13,828 bases of DNA from NCBI GenBank assembly GCA_934359535.1, contig CAKRLN010000033.1, forward strand, positions 1-13,828. Direction: 5' to 3'. The translations under genes were made by a program, and so were the position numbers. Positions within the stretch are counted from its first letter, which is position 1, and every line of letters begins with the position of its first letter. The notes below the pieces were generated by a model. It made no database searches, was not told the origin of the DNA, and worked only from the letters and a program-made list of their open reading frames with translations. The stretch comes from an uncultured Lachnospiraceae bacterium. Lineage in GTDB: Bacteria; Bacillota; Clostridia; Lachnospirales; Lachnospiraceae. This document shows, piece after piece, positions 1 to 13,240 of this stretch.

Positions 1-315
1 AGTCAGGGCCACCACAAGCTTTGCACCGGAGGAGATTCCAAGCACATACGGTCCTGCGATCGGATTCTGGAAAAAACTCTGAAGCAGGAACCCGGAAACG
101 GAAAGAGCACCTCCCAGAAGAATTGCCGCGCAGATTCTCGGCAGGCGGATTTTCCATACAATCTGATACAATGTCTGATCACGCCCCTCTGCATCAAACA
201 ATCCTAAGAAGTCTCTCATTGTCATGCCGACACTTCCCACACCGGCATTCCACAGAAACAGGATTATAAGCAATAGGACAAATATAAAAAATGCTGTCAT
301 ATACCGTTTCTTCAA
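1..315 (-). CDS. FecCD/BtuC-family ABC transporter permease, N-terminal part (runs off left edge)
   Basis: The first 105 codons of an integral-membrane permease of the FecCD/BtuC family, which imports iron-siderophore, heme or cobalamin. The TTG start at 315-313 is preceded by AAAGGAG with about 10 bases spacing; in-frame ATG at 300 is an alternative. Residues about 8-28 form the first membrane helix. Then come the family hallmarks RLPRI, a GGALSVSGFLLQ segment, QNPIAGPYVLGISSGA, and the beginning of the next helix. Most of the roughly 330-residue protein lies outside the window. It follows the substrate-binding lipoprotein after 102 bases that hold no terminator, so it is probably the third gene of the riboswitch-controlled operon. 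Family assignment is firm from the motifs. The substrate is inferred from the cobalamin riboswitch and the CbiK-like neighbour. Confidence 0.92.
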   Translation of the reverse strand, partial: MKKRYMTAFFIFVLLLIILFLWNAGVGSVGMTMRDFLGLFDAEGRDQTLYQIVWKIRLPRICAAILLGGALSVSGFLLQSFFQNPIAGPYVLGISSGAKLVVALT

Positions 316-417
316 GCCTTCCTCACTCCTTTCATTTCCTGCTATAATCAGTTTTGCGAAACTCTCCCAAATTTACAATCACATGTACCTTCCGTGCGTT
401 TTGCAATTCCCTGCCTG

Positions 418-1941
418 TTACAATTTCTTCAGGAAACGATAATCCCCGGTTGTATCCCCGGTCAGAATCCGGTTCAGATCTTCAATAAACTCACATGTTC
501 CGGTTGTCTGCTGATAGAAATTACTTCCGGTTGTATATACCTGACCATTTTTTACCGCTTTAAAATCCGCAAAGAGGCTGTTTTTCTTCAAAAGATCATC
601 CATCGAAGTAAGCTCACCCTCAATGGTTCCATTGTAGATCAGTACATCCGCATCCTTTTCTGCGGCATAGAAATCCTCCATCTGCATCTTCATCGTGGAA
701 AGTGCATTGTCTTCTTCCTGGATGTAACCATTCAAAGAGTAATTTCCACCGGCCAGCTCAATCATGGAAGAGACATAATCATTTGGCTTTCGTACTGTAA
801 TAGTTCCATCCGATGCAACTGCAAAAAATGCCACGGATAATCCGGTATTTTCTTTTTCCAGAATCGGTACAATCTGTGCCTCCTGTCCGGAAAAATATGT
901 TTTGGCTTCCTGCTCTTTCCCAAATAATACACCAAACAGCTTGATCCATTCAAGTCTTCCAAGCGGATGTTTTTCATAACTGCTACGCTCAATCATTACC
1001 TGAATGCCAAGCTCTTCAAGCTTTTCCTTGACCTCCGGATTATGGGTAATCATCGTATTTTCCACCGCAAAGCTACACCCTCCGGAAAGCAGAAGCTCAT
1101 AGTCCGGTGCGCTGTATTTTCCTGCATAGATCAGACTCCCGTTATTCATTGCGTCAGCAGCCTTTTCCACTGCCCAATCCTTCTGCTTCGTTCCGGTATA
1201 GGAGACCGAAGAAAGTGCATCCAGCTCGCAGATTAGATCCATAACCGCACTCGAAACCATGTATACATGGGAAAGCGGCTGCTTTAGCACTGTAACATCA
1301 TCCGGAATTCCTGACGGCTCGGATGCACCTTCCGGAATAAGCAAAAAACGACCGTTATTCACGATCGTTATCATTTTATATGCTCCATATTGTTCTACCG
1401 TAAACTGATCGGCATAGAACAATTCCATCTGCCCGTTTACCTTAAGGTCTGAAAAGCTCACATCCTCAGGAAATGAAAAGGTCAGTGTATAGTCAATCTC
1501 ATGCGGTGTACTCATTGCTGTCGTATCCCCGACAACGTCCATTTCACATGGTACTCCGTCAATCGGGAACGTAAAAGTTGAATTTCCACCCTCATTTTCA
1601 TTCAGGTACTTTTCCCCATCCACAAGCATATAATCATAATTTGCACTGCTCCATACAATCGTTGCATATGCCTGTCCGTCTGTGACGGTCACCTTAGCGG
1701 GTGTGTCCACAGAAGCTCTTCCGCTTCCGCCTTCTAACGTAACATTTACGGTATATTCCCCGTCTTCCAGAACACTCTTTCCATTTTCATCTGCCAGTTC
1801 TTCGGTATCACCACTTTCCGTAGCCTCTGTTCTGGCACCGGATACACGGTTCTGCTGTGCCTGATCTGCTCCGCAGCCGGCAAGCAGCTGCAGCCCTGCC
1901 AAAACAGACAACAGCAGTACCGTAATCTTTTTCTTATTCAT
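418..1941 (-). CDS. Lipoprotein substrate-binding protein of a FecB/BtuF-type ABC importer with extra N-terminal beta-rich module
   Basis: A 507-residue exported lipoprotein. Residues 1-23 are a signal peptide ending in a lipobox (LLAGC, Cys23), followed by an acidic low-complexity linker to about residue 55. Residues about 58-157 form a separate beta-rich module beginning LEDGEYTV and containing TVTDGQAYATI. From about 175 to the end is a class III (BtuF/FecB-like) periplasmic-binding-protein fold, with HPLGRLEWIKLFG near the middle, typical of the inter-lobe helix region. The family is usually about 300-350 residues, so the extra length is the N-terminal module. ATG at 1941 has an AAAGGA site upstream and lies 30 bases after the CbiK-like gene. 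It should capture ligand at the cell surface and deliver it to the FecCD permease encoded next. The ligand is not known; the cobalamin riboswitch upstream favours a corrinoid or related tetrapyrrole. The N-terminal module resembles one in the upstream chelatase lipoprotein. Confidence 0.88.
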   Translation of the reverse strand: MNKKKITVLLLSVLAGLQLLAGCGADQAQQNRVSGARTEATESGDTEELADENGKSVLEDGEYTVNVTLEGGSGRASVDTPAKVTVTDGQAYATIVWSSANYDYMLVDGEKYLNENEGGNSTFTFPIDGVPCEMDVVGDTTAMSTPHEIDYTLTFSFPEDVSFSDLKVNGQMELFYADQFTVEQYGAYKMITIVNNGRFLLIPEGASEPSGIPDDVTVLKQPLSHVYMVSSAVMDLICELDALSSVSYTGTKQKDWAVEKAADAMNNGSLIYAGKYSAPDYELLLSGGCSFAVENTMITHNPEVKEKLEELGIQVMIERSSYEKHPLGRLEWIKLFGVLFGKEQEAKTYFSGQEAQIVPILEKENTGLSVAFFAVASDGTITVRKPNDYVSSMIELAGGNYSLNGYIQEEDNALSTMKMQMEDFYAAEKDADVLIYNGTIEGELTSMDDLLKKNSLFADFKAVKNGQVYTTGSNFYQQTTGTCEFIEDLNRILTGDTTGDYRFLKKL

Positions 1942-1971
1942 ATTGAATCCTTTCGGTGTGTTTTCAAACTA

Positions 1972-3579
1972 TTAGTTGTTTTCAATCTGAGGATCAGAAA
2001 CACTTACCTTATGGTCATACCACTCGCCCTTGCTGCCAAGAATTGCAAGATCAAATTCCTTGTCTAATGCTTCTACTGGCACATCAAAGCCATATACCTC
2101 TTCGGTTGTTCCATCGCTGTAAGTAACGGTATCCGTTGTCGGCTCTAAAACAGCTGCTCCATCTTTTTTTGCATCCTCTGCTGTTCCTGGAAACAGGTTT
2201 ACAATCTTCTTGGAAACAAGACTGATATGCATTGTCATCTTTCCATCTTTTACTGTCAGGGTTCCACGACCGTTATTTGCCTCATTGACATGGAACATAC
2301 TGCTGTCCGTGTCAAATTTTGCAGAATACGTACCATCCTCGAGCGCACCAGTGGTGCTCTCTTTCGATGTTTCAATGTTTCCAAGTGACTCAATGGCATT
2401 CTTTGTATGCTCTACATAGATCTGCTGGATTGCTTCGACCTCACCAAGACCCGCGATCTGGGTATCAATCTTGTCAAAAGCCTTGCTTGCCTCAAACTGG
2501 CTCTTCCATGAATCGTCATCATCACCAGCCATATCGTTGTTTGCATGATCTCCTGCAACAACCATAAGTGGTCTTAAAACAACCTTCTTATATCCAGCTG
2601 CCTTTACATCTGCAATTACGTTTTCACATGCAGTCTCTTCCGGCTCACCCTCTACAGTTCCGATAAATACATTGTCATATCCAAGCGCCTTCATCTGGGA
2701 AGCCATCTGGCTGTAGCTGATCTTTGCAGTATGGGAAGTACCATGTCCCATGAAAACGAATGCGGTACCATCTTCCTTTGCTGCATCTAAGCTGTCATAA
2801 CCAGCAGTCTTTACTGCCTCTGCTGTAATTGCCTCTGCAACCTTTGCTTTATCCTCATTGACAGCCTCTGCATCGGTTCCAACCTCGCCGAGTAATGGCT
2901 CTGCAACCGTAACGGTCTCAAATTTATCCTTATAATTCTCAAGCGCCTCTACAAGCTCGTCATATTCTGCACCATGCATCAGATGAGTCGGCTGTACAAC
3001 AAGGTTCTTTACCCCATTCTTTACGGCACGCTCTAATGCCTGATCTACGTTGTCGATCTTCTCAGCATCTCTCGCCTGTACATGATTGATAATGATCTGT
3101 GCGGTAAATGCCCGTCTTACCGACCATCCTGGATTTGCCTCTGCAAGTGCCTTCTCAATGCCTCCGATATCCGCTACACGGCTGTCATTAAAGGAAGTAC
3201 CAAAGCTTACAACAAGCAGCTCATTCTCTCCGATATCGTCCTGATTTAATGGGTCATCCTTGGATGCATCTCCAGTATCTCTTCCGAAATAATCCGGATC
3301 TGCATTTTCTCCAGATACAAGCTCCTTCTGTGCATCGGTAAGCTTATCCCATGCTGCCTTTGCAGCTGCACACTGCTCGTCTGTCTTATCAGTTCTTGTC
3401 TGTACATAGATTGCATCAATCAGATCTGCAACCTCATCTGCTGCTTTCTGATCTGCGTTCTTGCCGCTTGCTGTTGTTTCTGTTTCTTTCACATCGTTGT
3501 TTGTTTTGCTTCCGCATCCACCTAACAGTCCAACTGTAAGGGTACATGCTGCAAGAAGCACCAGTGTTCTCTTTTTCAT
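1972..3579 (-). CDS. cbiK: Surface lipoprotein sirohydrochlorin cobaltochelatase (CbiK-like) with extra N- and C-terminal modules
   Basis: A 535-residue protein with the CbiK anaerobic cobaltochelatase fold, which inserts Co2+ into sirohydrochlorin. The ATG at 3579 is chosen because AAAGGAG lies 6-7 bases upstream and it gives a clean signal peptide with lipobox LGGC (Cys22). A longer frame from 3639 would run through the terminator and lacks this logic. Residues about 45-88 form a small helical segment containing AWDKLTDAQKELV. Residues about 116-395 are the chelatase: ELLVVSFGTSFNDSR opening, FMGHGTSH (His279) and VAGDHANNDMAGD (His345), which match the two metal-site histidines of known CbiK. 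Residues about 411-530 form an added beta-rich module (LEDGTYSA, TLTVKDGKMTM, WYDHKVSV). Ordinary CbiK is about 260-300 residues and cytoplasmic, so this form should act outside the membrane. An exported CbiK is known in Desulfovibrio vulgaris (CbiKP). Co-transcription with an importer and cobalamin riboswitch control point to corrinoid, cobalt or tetrapyrrole acquisition. Whether it is still catalytic is unknown. Confidence 0.9.
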   Translation of the reverse strand: MKKRTLVLLAACTLTVGLLGGCGSKTNNDVKETETTASGKNADQKAADEVADLIDAIYVQTRTDKTDEQCAAAKAAWDKLTDAQKELVSGENADPDYFGRDTGDASKDDPLNQDDIGENELLVVSFGTSFNDSRVADIGGIEKALAEANPGWSVRRAFTAQIIINHVQARDAEKIDNVDQALERAVKNGVKNLVVQPTHLMHGAEYDELVEALENYKDKFETVTVAEPLLGEVGTDAEAVNEDKAKVAEAITAEAVKTAGYDSLDAAKEDGTAFVFMGHGTSHTAKISYSQMASQMKALGYDNVFIGTVEGEPEETACENVIADVKAAGYKKVVLRPLMVVAGDHANNDMAGDDDDSWKSQFEASKAFDKIDTQIAGLGEVEAIQQIYVEHTKNAIESLGNIETSKESTTGALEDGTYSAKFDTDSSMFHVNEANNGRGTLTVKDGKMTMHISLVSKKIVNLFPGTAEDAKKDGAAVLEPTTDTVTYSDGTTEEVYGFDVPVEALDKEFDLAILGSKGEWYDHKVSVSDPQIENN

Positions 3580-3621
3580 CCTGTTCTCCTTTTGATATGA
3601 TGATTGAATCATAGTTTCCAC

Positions 3622-3656
3622 AAGAAAACTCCGCCCCATAGCTAACGGAGCGGAGT
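3622..3656 (-). terminator. Riboswitch-controlled intrinsic terminator in the cbiK leader
   Basis: Read on the minus strand, ACTCCGC (3656-3650) pairs perfectly with GCGGAGT (3634-3628). A further CC/GG contact is possible inside the 15-base loop, and TTTTCTT follows. It lies between the cobalamin riboswitch and the cbiK ribosome binding site, as expected for a ligand-controlled transcription attenuator. The 5-prime arm can instead pair at TTACTC (3658-3653) with GAGTAA (3721-3716), a weak six-base candidate antiterminator. Confidence 0.8.
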
Positions 3657-3727
3657 AAAAAGTCTATACAAAATAAGCCTGTCAAACGGCAGTGATGTAT
3701 AACCAGTACGACCAATTACTCGTGATC

Positions 3728-3950
3728 TGGGAATTGCTGTAATCCGAAAACAACTTCCCTGTACCAGACAACAGGCAGGTTTCCTGGCTGATAGATCTGC
3801 ATGCTTCCTCTGCCTTCCCAATGCTCTGCATCAGTGACATTTTCTTCATAATGAGGAAGCACTCCCTAATCACAGTGACGAGATCGTACAGGAATTGCAC
3901 CTGTTTCCCTTTTACCCGGCCCGAATCTACGATTCAGCCGGCACCAATTG
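3728..3950 (-). promoter_or_regulatory. Cobalamin (AdoCbl-type, class I) riboswitch
   Basis: The minus strand carries the conserved cobalamin riboswitch landmarks in order. These are GGTGCCGGCTG near 3945, TAAAAGGGAAACAGGTG with its CCTG partner at about 3890-3915, a CACTGTGA block, GTCACTGATGCAG, TTGGGAAGGC, and the B12 box AGCCAGGAAACCTGCC at 3789-3774. A stem GGGAAgTTG/CAATTCCC at 3759-3729 follows and could be P13. The full set, including the GGGAAGGC arm, matches class I elements that sense adenosylcobalamin. It sits about 150 bases upstream of the terminator and about 195 bases upstream of the cbiK-like start, so it should switch the chelatase-importer operon off when cobalamin is plentiful. 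The 3-prime boundary is approximate. Confidence 0.95.
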
Positions 3951-3972
3951 TCTTCTCTATGAAACTTTAATC

Positions 3973-4001
3973 ATACTAGCATATTCATGTTTTAATTACA
4001 A
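3973..4001 (-). promoter_or_regulatory. Candidate sigma-A promoter of the riboswitch-cbiK operon
   Basis: On the minus strand a TTGTAA box (4001-3996) is followed by a 17-base spacer and TAGTAT (3978-3973), each matching four of six consensus bases. An overlapping TATGAT at 3975-3970 is another possible -10. The position is right, just upstream of the riboswitch and immediately after the preceding permease gene ends at 4013. The boxes are imperfect, so this is a candidate only. Confidence 0.45.
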
Positions 4002-9899: not shown

Positions 9900-11990
9900 C
9901 TAATTCAAACGAAATTGGGCAACAAACGCTTTGATCACGTTGACAGACTGATTGCACTCCTGTAATTTATTGTATCCTTCTGTAACAAGACTCTGTGTAC
10001 TTCCAGATTTCTCTGCGATGCCGCTGATTCCATCGGATGACTGCTCCACCATGGAACTGATCTCCGCAACGGTACTGCTGATCTGTTCAATATGTTTTTC
10101 CAGATCCCCTACCGCATTTTTAGTCTCCAGCATAATCTGCTGGAATGTATCAGCATCGGTGTGATACTGCTCACCCACTTTTGCAAAATTCTCATAATCC
10201 CCAAGAACGGTATTTTCCAGAAATTCCATGATCGTTGTCAGGCATTCGGTCATATTTGTCACAGATCCATTTACCTCCCGGACAATTTCATCAATTGTAG
10301 AAACCGTATCGAGCGTCTGTGTTGCGAGCGTTCCGATCTCCGAAGCAACTACTGCAAAACCTTTTCCCGCTTCTCCGGCCCTGGCAGCTTCAATATTGGC
10401 ATTCAAAGCCAGCAGATTCGTCTGTGAAGAAATCTGTTTGATATTCTCTGTCAGGGCATTGATCTTCTGTACCGATTTTGCCTGTTCCACAGCAGCTTCG
10501 CTCTTCTGCTTCATAACGGCATACATTTCATCGGTCTTGTTCCGGGATTCCACACTGATTCGTTCCATTTCACCAGCACGCTCCTGAATTTGTCCGGAAT
10601 TTTCCTCTCCGTCCTCAGCCAGCTTCTGGATATTCTGAGAACTTTCTTTCATATCCTCCACATTTTTTACAATATTTGCAGCATTTGCACTTGTCTCCTC
10701 CATGCCAGCTGCAAGTTCCTGCGTTGTTGCGGAATTATCTTCTGCGAAATCACTGTTCTGTTTCATAAGACCATTTAAGTCATTTGTATTGATTGCAAGC
10801 ACCTGCTGCGTCTGCTGCAGCTCCTCCATAAGACTCCGCAGCGTCTTTCGCATCTCATGGATTTTGGTCGCCATGATGCCAATTTCATCTTTTTGTTTCC
10901 GTAACTTTTCCCCCTCTTTGGTAGGCCGGAAATCCAACTGTGCTGTCTGATCAATCACTGATGTGAGCTGTTGGATTGGCTTTGACATTCCGGTTCCCAT
11001 TACAATCCCAATAATCGCGGAAAGAATAAATGCAACAAGCATTGCAGCAACGATCATTTTGGATAAGCCATAGGCTTCCCCATAAATCTCCTCCTTTGGT
11101 GCTGTAAGAACGAGTTTCATTCCATTATCCAGATTATAATACAAAAACTCCTTCACTATGCCATTATAGGAATATCCCATCGCGTTACCCTGATTATCCT
11201 CATTGTCCAAAAAAGTATCGGCTTTGGAAAGTGACTTATCCAGATCGGTAATCTTTGTCCCCACATCCACATCTTTATGGTACATAACTGCCCCGGCAGC
11301 ATCCGTCAAAAATGCATATCCGGAATCATATATGGTTGTCGCATCCACCAGATCTGTGATCTGCGAAAAATCGATATCCATTCCAATAACCCCGATCGAA
11401 GTGCCATCCTTTGCAAACAGCGGCACTACATATGAGATCATATAGATATTAATATTTTCATTCATATAAGGAGACATCCAGATTGCCTGTCCCGCCTGCA
11501 CTGGAAGATAATACCAGCCCACATGCTCCACATCGCCTTCTTCATACATGGAAAAATCGGTTGGCGTAAGGCACTCCAGATCACTATCGACCGACTGACG
11601 CTGTGCAAACACACCGGACGTCGAATTTGAATATTTCGGATTATAACGAAAATATACCGTTACCGCACCATCTGTATGATTTGCAAAATCCAGTACAGAC
11701 TTTTGTATTGTCTGTGTATAGGTATCCGCATAATTTTTGCTCTGCACAAACGCACCATAATCAAAATTGCTCATGGCAACTTCACTCAGCGTATCCACCG
11801 ATTGTTGGATTTTCTGAATGACTGAATTGATCTGTTCTACGTTTTTCTGTTCTGTCAGCTGCATCTTAATCTCAGCATCCGATCCCGCGGTACGGGCAGA
11901 ATTCGATATCGCAAGAATCCCGATTAAAACAGATGTAAATAACGAACAAATCAAAATTGATGCAATGAGCTTTTTCTGTATTGATCTCAT
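9900..11990 (-). CDS. Methyl-accepting chemotaxis protein with dCache-like sensor domain
   Basis: A 696-residue transmembrane chemoreceptor. A first membrane helix (about 9-29) leads into an extracytoplasmic sensor (about 35-300) with dCache features: WYYLP near 159-163, [22 protein letters not shown] near 186-207, and a membrane-distal alpha helix. The second helix is about 312-333. A HAMP domain follows (about 334-390), then a long coiled coil. The conserved signalling tip lies near 521-556 and contains [20 protein letters not shown] and GFAVVASEI, which contact CheA and CheW. The protein ends in FRLN without a CheR-binding pentapeptide. ATG at 11990 has AAAGGGG upstream. The gene stands alone, so its signalling partners lie elsewhere and the host should be motile. 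The ligand is unknown; the arginine that precedes the W-Y pair in amino-acid-sensing dCache domains appears to be valine here (157). Confidence 0.95.
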
Positions 11991-12141
11991 AGTAACCCCT
12001 TTCCAGCATAAACATCATGCCATAACCAAACCTTTTTGTTCTTCAGCTGTACACCTCTGCAATAGCACTTGTCAACCACAAGCTTCTTCTCTGCACATTT
12101 TCTGTTCTTTTTCTCTTCTTTAAGAATAATCCTATTTGATG

Positions 12142-12156
12142 AAATGTTCAACATTT
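12142..12156. repeat. 15-base inverted repeat upstream of the chemoreceptor gene
   Basis: AAATGTT-C-AACATTT is a perfect 7+1+7 inverted repeat in the 293-base gap between the dehydrogenase terminator and the chemoreceptor start. It lies about 150 bases before the chemoreceptor ATG. The gap holds no credible gene. The repeat may be an operator, but no clear promoter was found next to it. Confidence 0.4.
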
Positions 12157-12176
12157 TTTGACACCTGCTTTTCGTG

Positions 12177-12213
12177 AAAAAGCAGCCAATCTATTTTTCA
12201 TAGACTAGCTGCT
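12177..12213 (-). terminator. Intrinsic terminator after the dehydrogenase gene
   Basis: On the minus strand the arm at 12213-12200 (AGCAGCTAGTCTAT) pairs with 12194-12181 over 14 base pairs, two of them G-U. The loop is five bases (GAAAA), and a TTTTT tract follows at 12181-12177. It begins about 70 bases after the dehydrogenase stop at 12284 and should end the hydrolase-dehydrogenase transcript before the chemoreceptor gene. Confidence 0.88.
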
Positions 12214-12283
12214 CATGTTTTAATTCCATATTCAGTTTTATTGCTTAACTGGTTTTATTTTCCATCTATGTTGACTAATTCAT

Positions 12284-13240
12284 TTATAATTTGCATACAT
12301 TGACTGGATTGCCATCTAAATAAGCTGATACATTATCAAATACAATTTTTGCCCGTCGGATCATTGACTCCTCAGAAATAAATGCCTGATGCGGAGTTAA
12401 TAATGTATTTTTTGCATGAAGTAATGCATAATCTTTTGGAATAGGTGGCTCCATGTCAAATACATCTATACATGCAAATCCCAATTTATCATTATTTAGA
12501 GCCTTAGCAAGAGCTTCATTGTCTACGATTGGTCCCCTTGCACAATTAATGAATACTGCATCACTTTTCATAAGTGCAATTTTATCTGCAGATATAAAGC
12601 CTTTGGTCTGTGCATTTAATGGCAGATTCAATGATACAATATCACTTTCTGCAAGTACATTATCTAACGATTTGTATTCAATGCCTAATGCTTTTGCTTC
12701 CTCGGATTCACTATGGTTATACGCGATTACCTTTGCCCCAAATGCAAGAAATAGTTTTGCTGCCAATAAACCAATTCTGCCAAGACCAATGATTCCGACT
12801 GTTCTTCCAGCGATTTCTTTTCCTCCAATTCCAGCACTCGTTCCACCATTCCTTACGATACCATCAGCCTTCACTACATTACGCAGCGCATCTATAGCCA
12901 TTCCTATAACTAATTCCGCAACTGTCTGGTTCGAATATCCAGCTGCATTACAAATCATAATATTCTTTTCTTTGCACTTGTCTGTTGCGATGTGATCGAT
13001 TCCTGTAAATGCAACTGAGAGCATTTTAAGCTTGTCTGCCTGCTCTATAACCTCAGATGGGTAAGGATTATTTGCAATCATAACAATATCACAATCTTTA
13101 CTTCTTTCTGCCAGTTCTTTCGAATCTGTAGTCTTTGAATCATAGTATACAAATTCATGCCCCTGATTTACAAATGGTGCTGAAAGTTCTTCAATAATTT
13201 CTTTTTTTACGCCAATAGGCTCTAATAATGCAATCTTCAT
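12284..13240 (-). CDS. D-isomer-specific 2-hydroxyacid dehydrogenase (NAD-binding)
   Basis: A 318-residue cytoplasmic oxidoreductase that interconverts a 2-hydroxyacid and a 2-oxoacid with NAD(H). The N-terminal substrate domain (about 1-100) includes a VAFTGIDHI strand. The Rossmann domain has VGIIGLGRIG (GxGxxG at 152-157). The catalytic triad of the family is present: Arg235 (CARGPI), Glu264 (DMEPP) and His284 (LTPHQAF). The closest look is the phosphoglycerate/glyoxylate dehydrogenase-like subgroup, without the ACT domain of serine-pathway SerA. ATG at 13240 has AGGAAGG upstream. It lies 24 bases after the M20-type hydrolase, so both are one operon. The gene is visibly more AT-rich than those to its left. 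The true substrate is not known; a product of the neighbouring amidohydrolase route is possible. Confidence 0.92.
   Translation of the reverse strand: MKIALLEPIGVKKEIIEELSAPFVNQGHEFVYYDSKTTDSKELAERSKDCDIVMIANNPYPSEVIEQADKLKMLSVAFTGIDHIATDKCKEKNIMICNAAGYSNQTVAELVIGMAIDALRNVVKADGIVRNGGTSAGIGGKEIAGRTVGIIGLGRIGLLAAKLFLAFGAKVIAYNHSESEEAKALGIEYKSLDNVLAESDIVSLNLPLNAQTKGFISADKIALMKSDAVFINCARGPIVDNEALAKALNNDKLGFACIDVFDMEPPIPKDYALLHAKNTLLTPHQAFISEESMIRRAKIVFDNVSAYLDGNPVNVCKL

Follow-up and report, generated by a model that had tools for sequence, protein, structure and literature searches.

A Riboswitch-Associated Cassette with a CbiK-Type Chelatase Lipoprotein in Lachnospiraceae and Its Possible Role in Uptake of an Early Cobamide Precursor

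A Chelatase Lipoprotein behind a Cobalamin Riboswitch

We analyzed a DNA stretch of 13,828 nucleotides from an uncultured Lachnospiraceae bacterium (contig CAKRLN010000033.1 of assembly GCA_934359535.1; hereafter, the window), which carries on its minus strand a cobalamin riboswitch followed by genes for a CbiK-type chelatase lipoprotein, a lipoprotein substrate-binding protein, and a FecCD permease (Table 1). These parts, together with a terminator behind the riboswitch, had been named in the original prediction, made by a model from the sequence alone, and all of them were borne out; two further modules, which resemble NEAT domains and are fused to the chelatase and to the binding protein, had been overlooked. 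The riboswitch score lies well above the RF00174 gathering score of 31.5 bits. Counting both strands, the stretch around the terminator holds three terminator-like sites, compared with a mean of 0.3 in shuffled sequences.

Table 1. Features of the cassette, in order of transcription (aa, amino acids)
Feature	Position	Strand	Basis or remark
Cobalamin riboswitch aptamer RF00174	3963-3757	minus	cmscan 105.3 bits, E 5.5e-26, full length
Intrinsic terminator, between aptamer and CbiK	3656-3628	minus	12-pair stem, then T run
Predicted exported CbiK-type chelatase lipoprotein, 535 aa	3579-1972	minus	Pfam CbiK and signal peptide
Conserved N-terminal helical region, mature CbiK residues 47-117 (of 535)	3441-3229	minus	Alignment, model
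CbiK catalytic domain	3219-2389	minus	PF06180, residues 141-417 of 555-aa frame
Presumed active-site Glu E205 (of 535)	2967-2965	minus	Invariant in 98/98 exported-type and 49/49 non-exported
Presumed active-site His H279 (of 535)	2745-2743	minus	Invariant in 98/98 exported-type and 49/49 non-exported
Presumed active-site His H345 (of 535)	2547-2545	minus	Invariant in 98/98 exported-type and 49/49 non-exported
NEAT-like domain 1, C terminus of CbiK	2361-1975	minus	Residues 427-555 of 555-aa frame
Lipoprotein substrate-binding protein, 507 aa	1941-418	minus	Lipobox LLAGC
NEAT-like domain 2, N terminus of binding protein	1803-1486	minus	Residues ~47-152
Peripla_BP_2 domain	1257-523	minus	PF01497 E 4.7e-27, residues 229-473
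FecCD permease, first 105 aa, cut by window edge at position 1	315-1	minus	PF01032 E 4.1e-24

The chelatase matches PF06180 at E 1.2e-71 and 241.5 bits (cut-off 26.2) and has the class II chelatase fold. Its 194.4 bits against NF047852 fall below the equivalog cut-off of 400 bits and, judged from the signal sequence, it departs from canonical CbiK, which is cytoplasmic. The list of open reading frames places its start at 3639, giving the 555-amino-acid frame; we consider the ATG at 3579, which opens the signal peptide MKKRTLVLLAACTLTVGLLGGC, the more likely start because the signal peptide begins there and AGGAG lies just upstream. The lipobox reads LGGC, and a lipobox-like pattern was found in 68 of 77 chelatases, the window's included, in comparison with 37 of 1,540 shuffled sequences. 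Inspected by eye, the other nine comprise four with a lipobox, three with another signal peptide, one that is cut, and one with a doubtful start. The chelatase is thus predicted to sit outside the membrane. The one Glu and two His residues, whose roles we take over from CbiK, are invariant in exported-type and non-exported copies alike. Ahead of the chelatase domain, the N-terminal region contains many invariant alignment columns, forms helices in the structure model, and matches no named family. Over the BLAST alignment, the protein is 87% identical to the chelatase of Roseburia porci, the nearest relative.

NEAT-Like Domains and Import Genes

From their sequences, the two extra domains are best called NEAT-like rather than NEAT. 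In the window they score 23.5 and 16.8 bits against PF05031, which has a gathering score of 32.8 bits. Pfam NEAT was matched by 18 of 30 aligned members of domain 1 at E up to 0.1 and by 8 of 31 aligned members of domain 2 at E up to 0.01, the window's own domain 2 reaching E 7.9e-5. The domain 1 profile found the NEAT structure 4h8p ("iron transport-associated" proteins) in PDB at E 0.014, and hhalign gave 97.5% for the profiles of domains 1 and 2 compared with each other; the structure search barely reached these parts, as chelatase and binding-protein folds filled its result lists. Heme-binding NEAT domains carry the motif YxxxY. This motif is absent here: domain 1 has WYDHxV, and domain 2 has HExxY, with H and Y kept in 50 of 50 sequences.

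The binding protein has the BtuF/FecB fold, resembles HutB among others, and gave a weak match to IsdE. A lipobox pattern was found in only 40 of 68 binding proteins, for which start sites were called crudely. The ATPase lies beyond the window; a same-strand ATPase match was present in 56 of the 68 related loci with room for it.

Conservation of the Cassette

A scan of species genomes gave 371 relatives, the best 80 of which were kept as loci; as these are the window's closest relatives, the sampling is uneven. In 59 of the 80, the modules follow the order CbiK, NEAT-like 1, NEAT-like 2, binding protein, and FecCD, and a same-strand cobalamin riboswitch lies upstream in 76, within 700 nucleotides in 72 of them and at a median distance of 173 nucleotides from the start of the match. 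The original prediction had proposed such a survey of lipoprotein CbiK genes beside FecCD importers, and its concern that most homologues might lack a cobalamin riboswitch did not materialize. Since locus sequence totaling 1.29 Mb contains only three riboswitch matches besides these 76, the linkage is not due to chance. Rfam confirmed the riboswitch in all 15 loci from the first two batches and in 4 of 6 from the third. Among the four loci without a match, L021 and L075 begin at most 113 bases from a contig end, and L046 and L079 have none. The counts were obtained with nhmmer and Rfam; a stricter regular-expression scan had left 45 of the 80 loci empty, and our home-built covariance model R1 holds only 21 base pairs, so its scores reflect mostly sequence. 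One 19.7-kb locus (L074) contains three cobalamin riboswitches, two of them back to back directly before the exported CbiK and the third, at ~18.7 kb, preceding a gene with a NEAT-like domain.

Of the loci that deviate from the common order, 8 have only CbiK and NEAT-like 1 (some, L004, L040, and L050 among them, despite long flanks), in 5 the binding protein precedes the chelatase, and the others are partial. The points of fusion vary among the cassettes. In the window, the first NEAT-like module is joined to the chelatase and the second to the binding protein; in relatives, both may be joined to the chelatase (L015), form a separate protein (L012), or be joined to the binding protein (L060), and in L009 the second module is free-standing. 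A fixed order of modules with moving fusion points is as expected from a physical relay, which we infer to be the role of these modules. At least two corrin or cobamide genes were found in the same locus in 42 of the 65 loci with room. In L058, an additional protein (11258-12328, plus strand), which contains NEAT-like 1 in two divergent copies, lies between the chelatase pair and the genes of NEAT-like 2 and the binding protein.

A second kind of exported CbiK, 48 to 56% identical, was identified in 21 further genomes within a sample of 250 genomes described below. We obtained wider loci for 14 of the 21: CbiK and both NEAT-like modules stand in order in all 14, and binding protein, FecCD, and ATPase follow in 13. 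A riboswitch model match accompanies 20 of the 21 distant exported loci (one was cut off and two were weak) but only 7 of 45 non-exported ones, the comparison covering 45 of 49 non-exported loci and flanks of ~0.7 to 1.5 kb, less at contig ends. In a tree of 149 CbiK domains, a single branch (support 0.946) separates the 98 exported-type copies and the unassigned L022 from the 49 non-exported copies and the unassigned L080. The L022 copy is a second CbiK domain that ends a 650-amino-acid protein just behind the cassette (10676-12625, plus strand) and groups with the exported copies. Cytoplasmic CbiK proteins of five loci (L090, L092, L101, L103, and L108) have a long N-terminal extension that by eye resembles the end of a CbiO cobalt-transport ATPase, and these look like fusions of cobalt import and chelation.

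Corrin Pathway Genes in Genomes with the System

For 44 of the 80 loci, we searched the genome for pathway genes. CbiD was found in all 44, uroporphyrinogen-III methyltransferase (CobA/SUMT; hereafter, SUMT) in 22, HemB in 17, and precorrin-2 dehydrogenase, counted at E below 1e-15, in 23; PF13241 has matches in all 44 genomes, and those of E 1e-8 or worse were taken, unchecked, as other proteins binding nicotinamide adenine dinucleotide. In 21 genomes HemB, SUMT, and a strong dehydrogenase match are all missing and the exported CbiK is the sole CbiK; no separate CbiX was found in these 21, as the CbiX matches coincide with CbiK genes. Named isolates among them are R. inulinivorans DSM 16841, Coprococcus comes, Oscillibacter ER4, and strain AD3010. 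The best NCBIfam matches in the R. inulinivorans locus are CbiF, D, G, H, J-E-T, C, A, P, and B and CobD, S, U, T, and C, several of them below cut-off. In the same locus (L111), CbiA and CobU are split in two frames and CobT is short, owing to draft errors or decay.

For a broader comparison, we used 250 genomes of the family of R. porci, requested at 90% completeness, the values of single genomes not being displayed. CbiD was found in 145 of them, SUMT in 118, and CbiM above cut-off in 46. An exported CbiK was listed in 68 genomes. For 47 of these, of the long type, it was called by match length and frame, a rule checked on the separate 80 loci rather than individually; the others are the 21 of the second kind, one of which (L150) has its start out of view and was classed by kinship. 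The 68 comprise 43 genomes with the exported CbiK only (SUMT in 15, CbiM in none) and 25 with a second CbiK match besides (SUMT in 25, CbiM in 5). A non-exported CbiK was assigned to 58 genomes (SUMT in 57, CbiM in 40), from a visible N terminus in 38 and from open-frame length in 20, of which 15 measure 264 to 288 amino acids and 5, taken as fusions, 557 to 576. Seven of the 58 have a further, unlisted CbiK match, and without these the counts are 36 of 51 for CbiM and 50 of 51 for SUMT. Nineteen genomes with an unlisted CbiK match were left untyped and outside these classes (SUMT in 10, CbiM in 1; 6 have CbiD and lack SUMT), and seven have CbiD without any CbiK match (SUMT in 1, CbiM in 0). 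An initial split by match length alone had given 79 "cytoplasmic" genomes; it was dropped when the N termini showed that 21 of them have the second exported kind, and its counts (CbiM in 0/30 vs. 41/77) are superseded.

The exported CbiK is closely associated with corrin synthesis: CbiD is present in 67 of the 68 genomes, compared with 145 of 250 overall (P value 1.5e-18, Fisher test). An importer of finished corrinoids (cobalamin, cobinamide, or cobyric acid), with CbiK as corrinoid receptor, would account for the cobalamin riboswitch, the BtuF/FecB-fold binding protein, the FecCD permease, and the corrin and nucleotide-loop genes within the locus. Such an importer is expected in cobamide users without corrin synthesis, yet CbiD is lacking in 1 of the 68 genomes vs. 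105 of the 250 (5 of the 105 hold a CbiK of unlisted type), and the loss of SUMT or CbiM would be left unexplained. We regard this explanation as quite unlikely, and the presence of CbiD in nearly all carriers likewise weakens that of a generic B12 importer. The tie to CbiD also bears on a role in taking up heme or porphyrin (iron), which has been proposed for the Iht system of Porphyromonas gingivalis and, in the form of heme or iron transport, for CbiKP of Desulfovibrio vulgaris. The NEAT-like modules, the resemblance of the binding protein to HutB among others, and the best PDB sequence match, FetB of P. gingivalis (PDB 9b86), which we take to be IhtB of that system, would fit heme. Given the riboswitch and the link to CbiD, we rejected heme as the main explanation and consider it highly improbable.

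SUMT is absent in 28 of the 43 exported-only genomes, in comparison with 1 of the 58 non-exported ones, and 40 genomes have CbiD and lack SUMT: their CbiK is exported in 27, cytoplasmic in 1, and untyped in 6, and the remaining 6 have no CbiK. The absence of CbiM, a main cobalt importer, from all 43 exported-only genomes contrasts with its presence in 40 of the 58 (Fisher, 2e-14) and holds among SUMT-positive genomes, 0 of 15 vs. 39 of 57 (Fisher, 9e-7), both tests ignoring kinship. Taken alone, the missing CbiM could mean that CbiK and the NEAT-like modules gather free Co2+ for import and that no tetrapyrrole is involved. This we find improbable: it offers no reason for SUMT, precorrin-2 dehydrogenase, and cytoplasmic CbiK to be absent together, and known NEAT domains and CbiK both handle tetrapyrroles. 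To account for kinship, we computed a tree of 99 CbiD proteins (42 from exported-only genomes and 57 from others). Export status switches 21 times on this tree. Across nine independent pairs on supported branches, the difference in CbiM ran opposite to that in export in 5.6 and parallel to it in 0 (median P value 0.03).

An Early Cobalt Tetrapyrrole as Candidate Cargo

A cell with CbiD, CbiF, CbiG, and CbiH and without SUMT must receive the ring at or beyond precorrin-2. If, in addition, its only CbiK lies outside and CbiM is absent, the simplest route would be entry of a ring that already contains cobalt. We tentatively favor, at a chance somewhat short of even, the explanation that the system imports an early cobalt tetrapyrrole, at the level of sirohydrochlorin, for anaerobic cobamide synthesis and that this ring is probably loaded with cobalt at the surface. 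By the behavior of its class, the riboswitch with its terminator would halt transcription when the cell has cobamide. The exported CbiK would capture a sirohydrochlorin-level ring outside the membrane and load it with cobalt at its conserved chelatase site; the two NEAT-like modules would hand the ring to the binding protein, FecCD and the ATPase would import it, and the internal corrin-ring enzymes would complete the cobamide. Where the whole pathway is present, the system may be a salvage supplement; where the early genes are missing, it would be the likely source of both ring and cobalt.

The most far-reaching form of this explanation is that the first step of anaerobic B12 synthesis specific to cobalt has shifted to the outside of the cell and acts on ring leaked by neighbors, with relay and import of Co-sirohydrochlorin or a close derivative. 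We see it as possible rather than probable; 28 of the 68 genomes with the system fit it, being SUMT-negative, so that their cells would be unable to produce sirohydrochlorin, and having only the exported CbiK and no CbiM. The cargo could be the same and the chelatase a mere receptor, which binds a cobalt-carrying ring through its active-site histidines and passes it on without catalysis. FetB, which has the same fold and was deposited as a heme-binding protein, gives a precedent, and the lack of CbiM fits cobalt arriving within the ring, but the conservation of the catalytic Glu along with both His residues in 98 of 98 copies goes beyond the need of metal binding, and we hold a receptor without catalysis to be unlikely.

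Several observations weigh against import of an early cobalt ring. SUMT is present in 15 exported-only genomes, and in 25 genomes the exported CbiK is accompanied by a second CbiK match. In the same nine pairs, SUMT differed the opposite way to export in 3.5 and the same way in 0.2, which is not significant (median P value 0.25). CbiM was the one cobalt importer searched for, and exported-only genomes may have others; neither is the lack of CbiM special to the system, as the seven CbiD-positive genomes without CbiK have no CbiM either. R. porci has HemB, SUMT, the dehydrogenase, CbiL, and a second CbiK, so the organism of the window may be a full producer for which salvage is perhaps an extra. 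Lastly, CbiL, which acts on Co-sirohydrochlorin, was not found at a cut-off of E 1e-20 in 16 of the 44 locus genomes, among them 13 of the 21 without early genes and three that bear SUMT (G017, G020, and G025); weaker matches, the positions of which were compared for some, appear to be other methyltransferases. Where CbiL is missing, the ring would need to be past C20 methylation, entering as Co-factor III, or else CbiL is replaced or unrecognized. Thirteen genomes (G004, G036, G038, and 10 others) lack CbiL despite having CbiD and a CbiF-like match.

The original prediction, which saw an extracytoplasmic chelatase used to capture cobalt, a corrin precursor, or another tetrapyrrole, is partly supported. 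Its preference for corrinoid or cobalt over heme is upheld by the riboswitch, the corrin genes within the loci, and the tie to CbiD. Its range of ligands was wide, the genome comparison favoring an early precursor over bare cobalt or a finished corrinoid, and it did not note that early pathway genes and CbiM are lost.

Neighboring Genes

Upstream of the riboswitch, the window encodes a MacB/FtsX-type permease and its ATPase (7107-4013, minus strand). This permease is probably outside the system, since an FtsX relative is among the called genes in only 1 of the 80 loci (L001). Farther away lies a chemoreceptor with a methyl-accepting chemotaxis protein signaling domain and a Cache-type sensor (11990-9900, minus strand).

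Comparison with Known Systems

Salvage of cobamide precursors has been predicted from genomes: 180 species were classed as tetrapyrrole precursor salvagers, and dependence on 5-aminolevulinic acid was reported for 3 (PMC6461909). Like 21 of our locus genomes, these species have corrin genes and lack early tetrapyrrole genes. The class is defined as a phenotype, and the available part of that paper names neither an importer nor an entry route for a whole ring (PMC6461909); the cassette is a concrete candidate. It is found in gut genera such as Roseburia, Coprococcus, and Pseudobutyrivibrio, predicts a trade in early tetrapyrroles between gut bacteria, and offers a possible explanation should organisms annotated as B12 producers fail to make B12 on their own. 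In the titles and abstract openings of open-licence literature, we found no description of such a cassette and no paper linking CbiK with a NEAT domain.

Among the relatives of single parts, the cytoplasmic CbiK of Salmonella (1qgo) differs from the window's chelatase in not being exported, and the solved 269-residue chain of CbiKP (PDB 2xvx and 2xvz) consists of the CbiK domain only, with no NEAT-like domain. BtuFCD and FecBCD importers share Peripla_BP_2, FecCD, and a FecE-type ATPase (here seen in relatives) with the window's system, to which the latter adds the NEAT-like domains and the chelatase. In the Isd-type NEAT relay of Gram-positive bacteria, NEAT domains likewise stand between a surface protein and a binding protein; unlike that relay, the system here has NEAT scores below cut-off, a riboswitch in place of iron control, and a chelatase at its head.

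The closest known system is IhtABCDE (Iht) of P. gingivalis, hardly characterized so far, which also consists of a CbiK-like lipoprotein, a binding protein, a permease, and an ATPase (PMC10913741), the ATPase being seen in our case in relatives only. Iht belongs to a Gram-negative bacterium, includes a TonB receptor (IhtA), and is ascribed to heme or iron; no TonB receptor appeared among ten window proteins in a general domain scan, a search with a TonB receptor model not having been made. The available part of that report describes IhtB as not regulated by PgFur and mentions no NEAT-like module (PMC10913741), whereas the window's system has two. If the cobalt-specific step does take place at the surface, Iht, whose host is likewise deficient in precorrin-2 steps, could import a cobamide precursor and have been mistaken for a heme system, and we suggest that chelatase lipoproteins classed under heme uptake are worth re-examination. 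Compared with Iht, the features that appear to be new here are the riboswitch, the putative NEAT-like relay, the tie to the corrin pathway, and the absence of CbiM.

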